Below, piece by piece: positions 11,335 to 17,061 of a DNA stretch of 64,000 nucleotides. This DNA is from Natronococcus amylolyticus DSM 10524 (GTDB lineage Archaea > Halobacteriota > Halobacteria > Halobacteriales > Natrialbaceae): positions 424,490 to 488,489 of the forward strand of contig NZ_AOIB01000013.1 of NCBI RefSeq assembly GCF_000337675.1, in the 5' to 3' direction. The notes below the pieces were generated by a model, which was not told the origin of the DNA, searched no databases, and was given only the letters and a program-made list of their open reading frames with translations. Position 1 is the stretch's first letter, and every line of letters starts with the position of its first letter. The translations under genes and the position numbers were made by a program.

Positions 11335-11610
11335 TCAGACGTCGACGTATCGACTGACCCACTCCTGGCGCTGCTGGAGTTCGCGTCGACCTTTCGGCGT
11401 CAGCGCGTAGTAGTTCGTCCGCCGGTCGAGCTGGCCCTTCTCGATGAGCTCCTTCTCGACGAGCGCGTCGAGATTCGGGTACAGTCGGCCGTGTGTCACC
11501 GGCTGGTCGATATACTGGTTGATGTCGTCGAGGATTTCCTGTCCCGACGGTCGGTCCTTGCCCGCAATGACGTACAGCAAGTCGCGCTGGAATCCGGTTA
11601 GTTCGTCCAT
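11335..11610 (-). CDS. PadR-family transcriptional regulator
   Basis: A 91-residue winged-helix protein. GFQRDLLYVIAG, SGQEILDDIN, THGRLYPNLDALVEKELIEKG and a final wing NYYALTPKGRREL match the PadR pattern in order. PadR proteins are dimeric DNA-binding repressors controlling stress or efflux genes. The protein is short, lacking the C-terminal dimerisation domain of long PadR members, as is common in haloarchaea. The 225 bp between its stop and the gene at 10378-11109 shows no credible gene. Its target is unknown. Confidence 0.85.
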   Translation of the reverse strand: MDELTGFQRDLLYVIAGKDRPSGQEILDDINQYIDQPVTHGRLYPNLDALVEKELIEKGQLDRRTNYYALTPKGRRELQQRQEWVSRYVDV

Positions 11611-11781: not shown

Positions 11782-12336
11782 ATGCCAACCGATCCGCTCG
11801 CCTGGGAAACCCTCGAGGAACGGACGTCGTACTCCTGCCCGGGGTTCGACGTGCTCACCGAAACCGTCCGACTTCCGGACGGGTCCGAAACCGAGTTCGA
11901 CTACGTCTCGGAGCCGGCGAGCGTCTGCGTCCTACCGTTTACGCCCGACGGCGACGTCGTCTGCATCGAGGAGTGGCGCCAGGCGGTCTCGCGGGTCAAT
12001 CTCGGCCTTCCCGTCGGCGGCACCGAACCCGAGGACGACGACCTCGAGGCCGCGGCCAGGCGCGAACTGGCCGAGGAAACCGGCCACGAGGCCGAGCGAC
12101 TCGAGCCGCTAATCACGGTCGAACCGGCCAACGGGTTCGCCGACTCGGTCATGCACTTCTTCGTCGCCTACGGCTGTCGCCCCGCCGCCGAGCAGCGCCT
12201 CGACCACAACGAGAGCATCCGTCCGACCGAGACGACCCTCGAGGAGCTCACGGAGGCGGTCCGTACCGGAGAGATCCGCGACGGCAGGACGGTGCTTGCG
12301 CTGTCGTACTACCGGCTGTTCGAGGCGGACGAGTAG
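11782..12336 (+). CDS. NUDIX hydrolase (ADP-ribose pyrophosphatase-like)
   Basis: A 184-residue Nudix enzyme. The Nudix box is complete, running from GGTEPEDDDLEAAARREL to AEETGHEAE (GX5EX7REUXEEXGU), and carries the metal-binding glutamates. The preceding VVCIEEWRQAVSRVNLGLPVG resembles ADP-ribose or nucleoside-diphosphate-sugar pyrophosphatases, which hydrolyse X-linked nucleoside diphosphates. The ATG at 11782 follows a TATA-like GTTTTTTAC about 30 nt upstream, consistent with a leaderless transcript. Confidence 0.87.
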   Translation: MPTDPLAWETLEERTSYSCPGFDVLTETVRLPDGSETEFDYVSEPASVCVLPFTPDGDVVCIEEWRQAVSRVNLGLPVGGTEPEDDDLEAAARRELAEETGHEAERLEPLITVEPANGFADSVMHFFVAYGCRPAAEQRLDHNESIRPTETTLEELTEAVRTGEIRDGRTVLALSYYRLFEADE

Positions 12337-12370: not shown

Positions 12371-12402
12371 TAAAAAAGACGGCCGCGAGCGATCGCGGCC
12401 GG
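12371..12402 (-). terminator. Intrinsic-type terminator of the first acidic paralogue
   Basis: On the minus strand, 31 nt after the stop of the gene at 12433-13668, an 8-9 bp GC-only stem (GGCCGCGA / TCGCGGCC) with a 4-nt loop is followed by six T residues. This is the classical hairpin plus T-run arrangement. Confidence 0.65.
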
Positions 12403-12432: not shown

Positions 12433-13668
12433 TCAGCGCAGGGCTGCGATCGAGGACGTCTCGTCCTCGTCGTCCTCGAGGTCGTTCTCCTCGTCGTCGG
12501 TCTCTTCGTCGGGCTCGGCCTCGTCGTCGGTCACTTCCTCGAGGTCCTGGGCGTCCCCGAGCGTGACGGTGTCAGCGTTGGCGTCGGTGACCGAGATCGT
12601 GGAGGCGGAGGCCTGGGAGACGGTTTCGGTCGTGGCCTCGTCGTTCTCCTCGTCAGCATCGTTCTCGTCCTCGTCGGCCTCGTTTTCGTCCTCGTCGGCT
12701 TCCTCGAGCGATTCGATCGTCATCGAGTCGAAGGTGATCTCCTCGACGTCGAACTGCTCGATGGTGAGGTCGTCGATCTCCTGGGTTTCGCCGTTCTCGT
12801 CCTCGTCGGCATCGTTCTCGTCCTCGTCGGCGGCGTTCTCCTCGTCTTCCTGAGCGGCGTCTTCATCCGCTACATCGTCGTTCTCGTCCGCAGCGGCATC
12901 GTCTTCGTCCGCAGCCGCGTCGTTCTCCTCTTCGTCGTCGCCGAAGATCCCGTCGAACCAGTCACCGATATCGTCGAGGAGCCCGCCATCCTCGACGGTC
13001 AGCTCGTCGATCGTCATTTGTTCGACGTCCATCGTCTCGATGGTCAGGGTCTGGATCGTGAGTTCGTTCGCGTCCTCGTCGATCAGATCCTGCCCGTTCT
13101 CGGGGGCCTCATCGTTATCGTTCATCTCTTCGTCCGTCTCGTCATCTGCGAGGTCGTTCTCCTCGTCAGCTTCTTCGTCGTCCATCATCTCGTCATCGTC
13201 CATCATGTCCTCGTCGTCCATCATGTCCTCGTCATCCATCATCTCGTCATCGTCCATCATGTCCTCGTCGTCCTCCTCGAGCTCGAGGTCGTCGATCGAG
13301 ACGTCCTCGAGGGTCAGCGACTCGAGCTGGATGTCCGAGATCGTTACGTCCTCGGTGGTCTCGGTGTCAGCAGTATCGTCCTCCTGGTTCTCATCTTCCT
13401 GATTCTCTTCACCGTTTTCCTCGAGTTCTTCCTCGAGATCCTGGGTGTCGGACTCGAGTTCGTCGACGTTCAGCTCCTCGATCGTCGCGTCCTCGATCGT
13501 CACTTCCTCGAGGTCGAGGGTCTCGACCTGGACGTTCTCGAGGGTCGCGCTCACGTCTCCGGCGTCGTCGCTCGTGCCCGCTGACGCGCCGGCGAGGGCG
13601 GGACCCCCCGAAAGCGCGACCAGCAGTGCGACGAACACGACGCCGAGTTTCTGTACGTTTGAAACCAT
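12433..13668 (-). CDS. Secreted acidic pentapeptide-repeat protein, paralogue A
   Basis: A 411-residue protein with a Sec-type signal peptide (hydrophobic core VVFVALLVALSGG, likely cut near ALA-GASA, residues 25-30). The mature part alternates five short ordered blocks (residues 41-72, 106-131, 201-227, 298-322 and 347-379) with Asp/Glu/Asn-rich linkers. The blocks are runs of pentads such as LTIET-MDVEQ-MTIDE: hydrophobic at positions 1 and 3, acidic at 4-5. This resembles pentapeptide-repeat beta-helices. One linker is a run of MMDD units. It ends in SIAAL-R, with no membrane anchor. It is 57% or so conserved by eye only within the blocks and signal of its neighbour. The function is unknown. 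Confidence 0.85.
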   Translation of the reverse strand: MVSNVQKLGVVFVALLVALSGGPALAGASAGTSDDAGDVSATLENVQVETLDLEEVTIEDATIEELNVDELESDTQDLEEELEENGEENQEDENQEDDTADTETTEDVTISDIQLESLTLEDVSIDDLELEEDDEDMMDDDEMMDDEDMMDDEDMMDDDEMMDDEEADEENDLADDETDEEMNDNDEAPENGQDLIDEDANELTIQTLTIETMDVEQMTIDELTVEDGGLLDDIGDWFDGIFGDDEEENDAAADEDDAAADENDDVADEDAAQEDEENAADEDENDADEDENGETQEIDDLTIEQFDVEEITFDSMTIESLEEADEDENEADEDENDADEENDEATTETVSQASASTISVTDANADTVTLGDAQDLEEVTDDEAEPDEETDDEENDLEDDEDETSSIAALR

Positions 13669-13696
13669 GCGAGCCGACCGTGGTCGGTAGCCGAGC

Positions 13697-13717
13697 TAAA
13701 ACGAGCCGACTGTTACG
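13697..13717 (-). promoter_or_regulatory. 21-bp promoter box of paralogue A
   Basis: Read on the minus strand, a CGTAACAGTCG element is followed by GCTCGTTTTA. The TTTTA is a TATA-like box ending 29 nt before the ATG, so a leaderless transcript is likely. The 21-bp box differs by one base from the one upstream of paralogue B and sits at the same distance from the start. Confidence 0.65.
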
Positions 13718-13966
13718 GTGTCGTGCTGGAGACAAGCCGGAATTAGCGACCGACTCCGGCGTCCTAATCAGTCGTTCACTCCGACCAGATCGGCGGCGAC
13801 TCGCGATCGAAACCATTCCTGTCAGGTTTCAGACATCCTGAACGCGATGGTCGGTATCACTCCGCGGGAACAGGACGTTTACTCACGGCACCGAAAAGAA
13901 ATCGCGATCAGTCCGCGGTCGACACCGCCGACCGACCGGAATCGGTCGATCTCGCGTGCAATCCGG

Positions 13967-15328
13967 TTAGCTCAGCGCGGCGATCGAGGGGAGACCGTCG
14001 TCGTTCTCCTCCTCGTCGTCATCGTCGTCGAGCAGCCCGTCGTCATCCTCCTCGTCGTCATCGTCATCGAGCAGTCCGTTATCGTTCTCCTCCTCGTCGT
14101 CGACCGCCTCGAGCTCCGCGGCGTCGCCGAGCGTCAGCGTGTCGACGGTCGCGTCACCGATCGAGATCGACGAGGCGGACGCCTGGCTGACCGTCTCCTC
14201 GTCGTCGTTCATCTCGTCGGCGTCCTCGTCGTTCATCTCGTCGTCTTCAGCCGCGTCGTCATCCATCTCCTCGTCGTCGTTCATCTCGTCGTTCGCGTCC
14301 TCGTCGTTCTCGGGCGCGTCCTCGTCGTCAGCTTCCTCGACCGACATCGCGGTCATCGAGTCGATGGTCATCTCCTCGACGTCGAACTGTTCGATGGTGA
14401 GGTCGTCGATCTCCTGGGTTTCACCGTTGTCGTCCTCGGGTGCGTCCTCGTCATCCATTTCCTCGTCGTCGGCGTTCTCCTCGTCCTCGGCCTCGTCGTC
14501 GTTCGCGTTCTCTTCGTCATCGACGCCGTTCTCCTCGTCATCGACACCGTTCTCTTCGTCTTCAGCCGCGTCTTCGTCGTTCATCTCGTCGTCCTCGACG
14601 GTTAGCTCGTCGATGGTGAGCTGCTCGACGTCCATCGTCTCGATGGTCAGAGTCTGGATCGAGAGCTCGTCAGCCTCCTCGTCGATCAGATCCTGGCCGT
14701 TCTCTTCGGCCTCGTCGTTGTCGTCCTCGAGCAGGCCGTCGTCGTTGTCGTCAGCTTCGTCGTTCTCCTCGTCGTTCAGGATGCCGTCGTCGTTCTCCTC
14801 CTCGTCGTCGGCTTCGTCAGCCTCCTCGTCATCGACGCCATTGTCCTCCTCGTCGACGTCGTTCATCTCGTCCTCGTCGAGTTCGAGGTCATCGACCGAG
14901 ACGTCCTCGAGCTCGAGCGACTCGAGTTCGATGTCGGTGAGGGTCACCTCGTCGGCGTCCTCGTCGTTCATCTCGTCCTCGTCGTTGGCGTTCTCCTCGT
15001 CATCGACGCCGTTCTCTTCGTCGTCGGCGTTCTCCTCGTCGTCAGCCGCCTCGTCCTCGTCGGCGGCATCGTCGTTCTCATCGAGTGCGTCCTGAAGCTC
15101 CTGGGTGTCAGCGTCGAACTCCTCGACGTTCAGCTCCTCGATGGTAGCGTCTTCGACCGTGACGCTGTCGAGTTCGAGGCTCTCGACCTGGACGTTCTCG
15201 AGTGTTGCGCTCGTGTCTCCGGCGTCGTCGCTCGCGGCTGCGGACGCTCCGGCGAGGGCAGGACCCCCCGACAGAGCGACCAGCAGAGCAACGAAGACGA
15301 CGCCGAGTTGCTGCGATCGTGAAACCAT
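13967..15328 (-). CDS. Secreted acidic pentapeptide-repeat protein, paralogue B
   Basis: A 453-residue paralogue of the next gene downstream, with the same plan: a Sec signal peptide (residues 1-30, nearly identical), then five pentapeptide blocks (41-72, 126-151, 220-246, 308-332 and 378-409) separated by acidic linkers, and a C-terminal SIAAL-S. Landmarks shared with paralogue A include ATLENVQVE, NGQDLIDE, IQTLTIETMDVEQ, GETQEIDDLTIEQFDVEE and TVSQASAS. The linkers differ completely: here they use repeated DDEENGV and DDGLLDD units. The ATG at 15328 (MVSRSQQLG) is chosen to match MVSNVQKLG of A; an ATG 9 nt upstream is possible. It has its own promoter. The function is unknown. Confidence 0.85.
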   Translation of the reverse strand: MVSRSQQLGVVFVALLVALSGGPALAGASAAASDDAGDTSATLENVQVESLELDSVTVEDATIEELNVEEFDADTQELQDALDENDDAADEDEAADDEENADDEENGVDDEENANDEDEMNDEDADEVTLTDIELESLELEDVSVDDLELDEDEMNDVDEEDNGVDDEEADEADDEEENDDGILNDEENDEADDNDDGLLEDDNDEAEENGQDLIDEEADELSIQTLTIETMDVEQLTIDELTVEDDEMNDEDAAEDEENGVDDEENGVDDEENANDDEAEDEENADDEEMDDEDAPEDDNGETQEIDDLTIEQFDVEEMTIDSMTAMSVEEADDEDAPENDEDANDEMNDDEEMDDDAAEDDEMNDEDADEMNDDEETVSQASASSISIGDATVDTLTLGDAAELEAVDDEEENDNGLLDDDDDEEDDDGLLDDDDDEEENDDGLPSIAALS

Positions 15329-15356
15329 GCGAACCACGCTACATCCAGCCGGAGAG

Positions 15357-15377
15357 TAAAACGAGACGACTGTTACG
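15357..15377 (-). promoter_or_regulatory. 21-bp promoter box of paralogue B
   Basis: The minus-strand element CGTAACAGTCG then TCTCGTTTTA lies 29 nt before the ATG. It differs from the box of paralogue A by one base, while the sequence between box and ATG and beyond the box has diverged. This points to a conserved core promoter or operator. Confidence 0.65.
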
Positions 15378-15582
15378 CCATTATCGTCGAGAAAAGATCA
15401 GTTAGAACCGTGTAACCGTCGCTAACCTCTCGTTCTTCGTCTCGTTTCTTGTGACCGTAATCGGCGGCGACACTACGGAGACACCGCGGCGACACGACGC
15501 CGATCGATCGGCTCCGGATCGACGGACGGGCCCACCGGCGGAGAACGGAACGTTTACCGACGCCCTCGCCAACACACGGTCG

Positions 15583-17061
15583 ATGCGCGAGTGCTTCGAA
15601 CTCCGGGACGCCGACGCCGGCGGTCGTATCGGCGAACTCACCGTTCCGCGAGCGGACGTGACCGTCGAGACGCCGGCGCTGTTGCCGGTGATCAATCCGA
15701 ATCTGGACACGATCTCCCCCCGTCGGCTCGCCGAGGAGTTCGGCGCCGAGATCCTCATCACCAACTCCTACATCATCTACGGCACCGAGGACGTTCGCGA
15801 GGCAGCCCTCGAGGACGGCCTCCACGAACTGTTCGACTTCCCGGGGGCGATCATGACCGACTCCGGCTCCTTCCAGCTCGCGGAGTACGGCGAGATCGAC
15901 GTCACGACCGAGGAGATCCTCGACTTCCAGTACCGGATCGGTTCGGACATCGCTACCCCAGTCGACATCCCGACCCCGCCGGACGTCTCCCGCGAGCAGG
16001 CCGAGGACGAACTCGCGACCACGCAGGAACGCCTCGAGATCGCCGAGACCGTCGATACGGGCGAGATGCTCGTCAACGCGCCCGTCCAGGGCTCGACCTA
16101 CCCCGACCTCCGCAAGGACGCGGGCCGACACGCGGCCGAAACGGATCTTGACGTCTTCCCCGTCGGTGCGGTCGTCCCCCTGATGAACGACTACCGCTAC
16201 GACGACATGATCGACGCCGTCGCGGGCGCCAAACGCGGTCTGGGCGCCGACGCGCCCGTTCACCTCTTCGGCGCCGGCCACCCCATGATGTTCGCGCTCG
16301 CGGTCGCGATGGGGTGTGATCTGTTCGACTCGGCCGCCTACGCGCTGTACGCCCGAGACGATCGCTACCTGACGGTTCGTGGCACCCGCCACCTCGAGGA
16401 TCTCGAGTATCTGCCGTGTTCGTGTCCGGTCTGTACCGAAAACGACCCCGACGATCTCCGGGCGCTCGAGGACAAACCACGGGAGAAAGAACTCGCCGCG
16501 CACAACCTCCATGTCACCTTCGAGGAGATCCGACGTATCAAGCAGGCCATCCGTGCGGGCAACCTCCTCGAGCTCGTCGAACAGCGCGCCCGCGCTCACC
16601 CGACGATGCTCGACGGCTACCGGACACTGCTCGATCACGCCGACCAGCTCGAGCGCTCGGATCCCGTCTCGAAGGGCGCCTTTTTCTACACCTCCCACGA
16701 GAGCGCGCGCCGACCCGAGGTACTGCGCCACCACCAGCGCCTCGACCGTCTCGCGGTACCCGACTCGTTGTTTCTCACCGAGGGCGACTCGGACAGCGAG
16801 CGCTACGACGAGTCCTGGCGGGTCCAGCCGCCATTTGGCCCCTTCCCGCGGGCGCTCTCGAAGAGCTATCCCCTCACCGCCGAAGTGCCCGAGCGAACCG
16901 ACCGTAGCGCGCTCGAGGCCGCAGCCGACGGCGTCGCCCGCTTAGTTGAGACGAATCCCGAGACCGAGTTCGCGCTCGGCCACCGGGGGTGGCCGGCGGA
17001 CGTGCTCGAGCGGATACCGGACGGCGTCGACCTCGTTGATCTGTCGGGAGAAAGCGGCTGA
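15583..17061 (+). CDS. tgtA: Archaeal tRNA-guanine(15) transglycosylase
   Basis: A 492-residue TgtA, which swaps guanine 15 in the D-loop of archaeal tRNAs for preQ0, the first tRNA-bound step of archaeosine synthesis. The TIM-barrel core shows [15 protein letters not shown], with the catalytic Asp region, and a later [11 protein letters not shown] segment. The zinc site is CSCPVC, followed by a His some 30 residues later ([10 protein letters not shown]). The C-terminal region continues to residue 492. The start [14 protein letters not shown] fits the family; the upstream extension is low quality. arcS follows 1.3 kb downstream. Confidence 0.93.

Follow-up and report, generated by a model that had tools for sequence, protein, structure and literature searches.

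How does a secreted protein fold, and what might it do, when its short pentad blocks are held apart by long acidic segments? The question is raised by two adjacent genes in a 64,000-nucleotide stretch of Natronococcus amylolyticus DSM 10524 (contig NZ_AOIB01000013.1, positions 424,490 to 488,489), which we refer to as the window and whose numbering is used throughout. A preliminary description of the encoded proteins, here named P1 and P2, had proposed either beads on a string or chains that join one another in a composite β-helix. Our analysis favors, at a probability of roughly one half, an exported β-solenoid core whose long loops would form a hydrated brush, charged or glycosylated, at the cell surface or in a matrix.

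Two secreted proteins with five ordered blocks

The genes and the elements within them are as follows.

12433..13668, minus strand: P1, secreted five-block acidic protein, the paralog on the NUDIX/PadR side; 411 residues (open reading frame, ortholog order and synteny)
13435..13554, minus strand: P1 block 1
13273..13353, minus strand: P1 block 2
13175..13273, minus strand: P1 linker grown by in-frame tandem repeats of MMDDDE type, 18 bp × 5.5 (Tandem Repeats Finder)
12982..13068, minus strand: P1 block 3
12931..12987, minus strand: P1 amphipathic segment GGLLDDIGDWFDGIFGDDE after block 3 (alignments)
12682..12780, minus strand: P1 block 4
12526..12627, minus strand: P1 block 5, degenerate pentads
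13967..15328, minus strand: P2, secreted five-block acidic protein, the paralog on the tgtA side; 453 residues from the ATG at 15328 (open reading frame, promoter spacing)
15095..15214, minus strand: P2 block 1
14873..14953, minus strand: P2 block 2
14585..14671, minus strand: P2 block 3
14315..14413, minus strand: P2 block 4
14096..14197, minus strand: P2 block 5

Signal peptides, five ordered blocks and linkers rich in Asp, Glu, and Asn, all noted in the preliminary description, are confirmed. Both proteins start with a Sec-type signal, M-V-S..LGVVFVALLVALSGGPALAGASA. The mature chains have net charges of about −178 (P1) and −213 (P2) and contain no Lys, His, or Cys; Asp and Glu make up approximately 50% of each protein. 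A test for lipoproteins found no lipobox Cys, and a test for PGF-CTERM found Asp/Glu-rich C-termini ending in PSIAALS or SSIAALR, with no NCBIfam match at cut-off. The shared SIAAL ending is followed by one further residue in each protein; it is common in the genus but does not extend across the family.

The blocks were measured as mature residues in runs of at least four hydrophobic-x-hydrophobic-x-x pentads and compared with 5000 shuffles. P1 has 100 such residues (shuffle mean 0.08, maximum 25) and P2 has 80 (shuffle maximum 20). Together with the ratios of nonsynonymous to synonymous substitution rates (dN/dS) and the family-wide block conservation reported below, the shuffles rule out chance or a low-complexity artifact. 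Four to six pentads had been ascribed to every block. Blocks 1 to 4 indeed hold about six, five, five, and four, but block 5 is degenerate and fails the strict pattern. Block 4 of P2 is also partly degenerate.

Between P1 and P2 the blocks are 70% to 83% identical and the linkers 28% to 59%. The earlier contrast between conserved blocks and linkers that share "almost nothing" thus stands, though its wording is a little strong; the linker identity largely reflects common composition. The linkers are made of short in-frame tandem repeats (Tandem Repeats Finder). The amphipathic segment (GxLxxIxDFxxGxFGG) is present in P1-type homologs and absent from P2 in the alignments.

Family and selection

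We assembled 78 distinct homologs of about 340 to 880 residues, in which blocks 1 to 5 always occur in the same order. All four linkers are kept in 78 of 78, at lengths between 11 and 185 residues. Selection on the blocks is purifying, with dN/dS of 0.11 to 0.23 between orthologs; P1 blocks give 0.16 to 0.23 against close orthologs, and P2 gives 0.12 against its closest ortholog.

In the genus, eight of nine genomes carry the block genes, in most cases arranged in tandem as in the window. The remaining genome (G001) lacks both the block genes and the perfect promoter copy described below, through loss or an assembly gap. Among the Natrialbaceae, profile searches match 94 of 125 genomes (25 of 29 genera); for the class as a whole, the totals are at least 108 of 392 genomes, belonging to at least 34 of 84 genera. 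These counts are lower bounds, because the block-only profile missed the genome of the window itself in the family search, presumably through a composition filter; the genus search did find it. Carriers include Natronococcus, Natronorubrum, Natrialba, Natrinema, Haloterrigena, Halopiger, Halovivax, Halobiforma, Halorussus, Haladaptatus, and Halostella. Comparison with the Pfam and NCBIfam models gave no match at cut-off for the family, in agreement with the initial impression that no described family has this layout, and our literature search found no paper describing it. This would be an apparently unannotated exported family, present in roughly one third of the sampled haloarchaeal genera or more.

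Predicted structure

The P1 model was computed with AlphaFold2 (AF2) from an alignment of 46 sequences with all blocks in register. All five blocks are predicted to be β structure, with predicted local distance difference test (pLDDT) values mostly of 86 to 90. Block 1 is β from residue 55 on (73 to 86 there), and blocks 2, 3, 4, and 5 reach 86 to 87, 86 to 90, 89 to 90, and 87 to 90, respectively. The amphipathic segment is modeled with low confidence as a helix (residues 231-241). The linkers score below 50, in keeping with the disorder expected of them from the outset. The predicted template modeling score (pTM) is 0.51, with approximately 208 of 411 residues above a pLDDT of 50. A compact Haladaptatus homolog gives the same picture, with all-β blocks (pLDDT mostly 82 to 96) and a pTM of 0.56 for about 191 ordered residues of 348. 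The preliminary description had staked its case on block conservation among homologs and on β structure in the blocks; the blocks are conserved in all 78 homologs, and AF2 predicts them as all-β.

A pTM so near the ordered fraction should require confident relative placement of all five blocks, and five independent beads would be expected to give values several times lower. In addition, blocks 1 to 3 are nearly contiguous in the Halorussus and Haladaptatus homologs, and look-alike proteins of 254 to 278 residues (L145-L147, below) do almost without linkers. For these reasons we favor a composite solenoid within one chain. The five blocks would be successive coils of a short pentapeptide-repeat-like β solenoid of about five to six coils, and the four inter-block segments and the tail would leave it as long, intrinsically disordered loops. 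The whole molecule would then be a small, rigid rod that carries a dense brush of hydrophilic loops.

The same values bear on the proposal of beads on a string, in which every block would fold by itself and the linkers would serve as spacers. Such an arrangement would suit the great length and variability of the linkers and the local confidence of the blocks in AF2. Yet a lone block of 20 to 40 residues amounts to about one coil, with its hydrophobic core open at both ends, the pTM is too high for independent units when about half of the chain is disordered, and the linkers almost vanish between blocks 1 and 3 of the homologs named above. We therefore reject independent beads as the principal explanation and regard them as very improbable.

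The other early proposal, a composite β-helix, survives in part, since a composite β solenoid is favored but the AF2 monomer models place it within one chain. Stacking of blocks from different molecules into fibers or a matrix network would make use of the exposed edge strands that each block, at about one coil, should present. The proteins are secreted and repetitive, and tandem paralogs with co-conserved blocks could hetero-assemble. However, the monomer prediction already accommodates all five blocks within a single chain, and the blocks are mutually distinct and fixed in order, as expected for coils of one stack and not for interchangeable sticky units. Stacking between chains is thus unlikely, in our estimate.

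Comparison with pentapeptide-repeat proteins

Canonical pentapeptide-repeat proteins have at least eight contiguous repeats with Leu or Phe at the center (PMC8145042). We applied the consensus (A/C/S/V/T/L/I)(D/N/S/K/E/I/R)(L/F)(S/T/R/E/Q/K/V/D)(G/D/E/N/R/Q/K), in which the center, position i, is Leu or Phe. In both Natrialbaceae and Halorussus, the longest contiguous run in the five-block proteins is seven pentads, in block 1. Across 1373 pentads, position i is Ile (38%), Val (37%), Leu (21%), or Phe (4%), with Leu, Val, Met, or Ala at i−2, Thr at i−1 (50%), and Glu or Asp at i+1 (80%). P1 and P2 have no match to the Pfam pentapeptide-repeat models, and the best homolog score is about 22 bits against a gathering score of 38. 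Pentapeptide_4 matches Halorussus and related homologs below cut-off (E 5e-5 to 2e-4).

The family departs from the canonical definition, and although it would work in the manner of a pentapeptide-repeat solenoid, we do not file it among pentapeptide-repeat proteins. As to the right-handed quadrilateral β helix of that superfamily, with four repeats per coil, the models give confident all-β blocks and Foldseek gives no match. It shares with them (Rfr fold; PF00805/PF13599) the five-residue period, hydrophobic residues at i−2 and i, and a predicted all-β structure. It differs in its Ile/Val center (75%), its acidic i+1 (80%), and its runs of at most seven pentads, as well as in being secreted and polyanionic with loops of 11 to 185 residues between the putative coils. 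A single-sequence search of the PDB with Halorussus blocks 1 to 3 returned mainly pentapeptide-repeat proteins as best matches: the designed protein beta1 (E 8.6e-8), NP275-NP276 (0.0087), HetL (0.08), and Rfr (0.26). Extra-helical loops known in QnrB1 and AlbG measure 8 to 13 residues (PMC8145042). If the proposed fold is correct, a solenoid can tolerate loops of at least 100 residues at nearly every junction between coils, a length far outside the range of known pentapeptide-repeat proteins.

Linker chemistry and habitat pH

The labels neutrophile and alkaliphile follow what we take to be the species descriptions, partly echoed in the literature. Per 100 residues, neutrophile linkers have a median of 10 N-x-S/T sequons, which is several times what same-composition shuffles give, and most of their Asn residues sit within a sequon. 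The median for alkaliphile linkers is zero; these are about 50% to 67% Asp and Glu and are depleted in Ser and Thr in general. By sequence count, the P1 and P2 linkers contain no sequon. The difference in sequon density between the two groups is marked (Mann-Whitney p ~2e-10, a value that ignores relatedness) and recurs within genera, between Halobiforma nitratireducens and H. haloterrestris and between Natrialba chahannaoensis/hulunbeirensis and N. asiatica. One case departs from the split: Natronoglomus, a soda-lake isolate, has three sequons per 100 residues. As we read the isolate names, this lineage also includes a facultatively alkaliphilic strain.

On the block tree the linker state changes about 10 times, at least five of them on well-supported branches. 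Among five independent pairs on supported branches, four agree with the habitat, none disagrees and one is tied (sign test p 0.125, underpowered). Linkers are apparently packed with sequons or made of nearly pure acid according to whether the brine is neutral or alkaline.

Might this dichotomy be a by-product of something broader? Loss of sequons across the proteome was considered and set aside, since a limited check found no matching split in sequons among partial S-layer proteins of the genus, which also argues against a general loss of glycosylation. A further possibility is neutral low-complexity drift, with linkers as functionless slippage products tolerated in loops and a composition that follows proteome-wide acidity. 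The short tandem repeats throughout the linkers and the general Ser/Thr depletion in alkaliphiles are what drift would leave. It does not account well for the placement of most neutrophile Asn in sequons at levels well above shuffles, for the unsplit S-layer proteins, or for the retention of all four linkers in every homolog, and we consider it improbable.

On the reading we prefer, the brush of neutrophiles would be dense in N-glycosylation sequons, and that of soda-lake species, apparently including N. amylolyticus, would be a nearly pure Asp/Glu/Asn polyanion. It is possible, though we hold this tentatively, that lineages entering soda lakes repeatedly swapped dense sequons for pure polyacid loops on a fixed solenoid core. 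The family would then be a widespread haloarchaeal surface-brush protein, a genetically encoded protein equivalent of the acidic polymers in the walls of alkaliphilic bacteria. As a marker of adaptation to alkaline brine, the linker switch can be tested directly.

Possible function

The likeliest job of such a molecule would be to form a hydrated fixed-charge layer at the cell surface or in the extracellular matrix and to bind cations. Halomucin and other sequon-rich or acidic haloarchaeal surface glycoproteins are secreted, acidic, disordered coat material. By that general description the five-block proteins resemble them, being acidic, secreted, disordered, and potentially heavily N-glycosylated; they differ in having only about 340 to 880 residues, arranged around a five-block β core. 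A weak profile similarity (E 0.05, not significant) points to PDB entry 3pet, which we take to be a DUF2807-type putative adhesin, secreted and β-structured; the five-block proteins differ in their disordered acidic loops, none being noted in the adhesin.

In alkaliphilic Bacillus, acidic cell-wall polymers (teichuronopeptide, poly-γ-glutamate) provide fixed negative charge outside the membrane (PMC8153356). The five-block proteins would share this charge and the alkaline habitat as a functional analogy, with the difference that they are ribosomal, genetically encoded, and found in neutrophiles too, as the sequon-rich form. Where the brine is alkaline, this fixed negative charge could bring down the local pH and hold Na+, a local pH or Donnan buffering like that of the Bacillus wall polymers. 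This raises the question whether a protein polyanion serves haloalkaliphilic archaea as acidic wall polymers serve Bacillus.

Alternatively, the linkers could be the active part, with the core as scaffold and the Asp/Asn/Gly segments binding a divalent cation or ligand, as in a calcium-dependent adhesin. DNGVDDEDNG-like linker repeats resemble calcium-binding repeats, and Halorussus homologs have a C-terminal Ig-like domain (weak Transglut_C match). Against this, no EF-hand, RTX, or thrombospondin model was matched in the family scans, and the linker sequence is not conserved. The linkers are, moreover, most acidic in soda lakes, whose brines lack major divalent cations (PMC4766312), which makes calcium bridging unlikely precisely there. 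We judge this explanation quite improbable. The Ig-like domain also fits a surface role, which for P1 and P2 is suggested by their composition, their signal peptides, and this weakly matched domain of distant homologs.

Several results weigh against a surface brush on a pentapeptide-repeat-like solenoid. P1 and P2 contain no anchor or binding domain. Foldseek returned no significant match for the P1 model in the PDB or for the Haladaptatus model in the PDB and BFVD (viral), and we accordingly give the core fold no name; the non-significant P1 matches are mostly β helices, with TM of about 0.04. Profile-based searches of the PDB gave weak matches (E 0.03 to 0.1), and the pentapeptide-repeat likeness may stem from periodicity alone. 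Finally, the link to pH depends on few independent contrasts.

Locus and promoter

The surroundings of the two genes include the following features.

11335..11610, minus strand: PadR-type winged-helix regulator, conserved neighbor (Pfam PF03551; 37 of 40 loci)
11782..12336, plus strand: NUDIX hydrolase (AdpP/NudE-like), conserved neighbor (Pfam PF00293; 37 of 40 Natrialbaceae loci)
12380..12401, minus strand: terminator-like stem-loop 3′ of P1 (consensus match only)
13697..13714, minus strand: P1 promoter element AACAGTCGGCTCGTTTTA, conserved in 74 homologous promoters
15357..15374, minus strand: P2 promoter element AACAGTCGTCTCGTTTTA, 28 nt upstream of the ATG at 15328
15451..17061, plus strand: tgtA, archaeosine tRNA-guanine transglycosylase, conserved neighbor (TIGR00432 above cut-off; 29 of 40 loci)

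Block genes adjoin tgtA and/or the NUDIX-PadR pair in all 40 Natrialbaceae loci examined. Several Natrinema loci keep one side only, as if the P1 and P2 paralogs had been separated, and Natronococcus sp. A-GB7 (L075) is 94% to 100% identical over the flanking tgtA, NUDIX, and PadR genes. In six Halorussus, Haladaptatus, and Halostella loci, neither tgtA nor NUDIX-PadR lies beside the block gene.

The promoter element has the form AACAGTC-n3-TCGTTTTA, 28 nt upstream of the ATG, and AAC...TTTC...ATAAT...GTAACAGTC-n3-TCGTTTTAGCC is common to 74 distinct promoters. In 61 of these 74, 28 nt separate the end of the TTTTA box from the ATG, and we therefore prefer the ATG at 15328 for P2 over a longer GTG form starting at 15337. 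A related element lies upstream of the Halorussus homologs. The perfect element occurs only twice in the genome, before P1 and before P2. A genome-wide regulon search with the element gave inexact matches at the level of reversed-pattern controls, and no functional partner emerged. Presence in many haloarchaeal genera, a synteny-conserved locus, and a conserved promoter of its own make the family probably important physiologically.

Opposite P1 and P2, the plus strand has long open frames that are rich in Ser or Val (13018-13584 and 14139-15095). We set these aside as the mirror image of Asp/Glu codons.

Related proteins

Some homologs (L133, L134, L137, L139, and L141; family f4) have short linkers, an insert, predicted to be helical, that separates block 4 from block 5, and a C-terminal region that reads as Ig-like from its sequence. 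Halorussus-like genomes also encode shorter secreted pentad proteins with few or no linkers (L145-L147, L167-L168, L148-L149, L153-L154, L169, and L171), tied to the family by a weak profile match alone; L145-L147, of 254 to 278 residues, have almost no linkers. A giant open frame of 5441 residues (G377:C207) contains weak block-profile matches. The genome of the window encodes a third secreted protein, only distantly similar (L003; G000:C21:15667-17106, minus strand), with a signal peptide and five short QVTIEQATIFVLIED-type blocks between which lie Asp/Glu/Asn linkers. Sequences like it are found in 9 of the 29 genera of the family.

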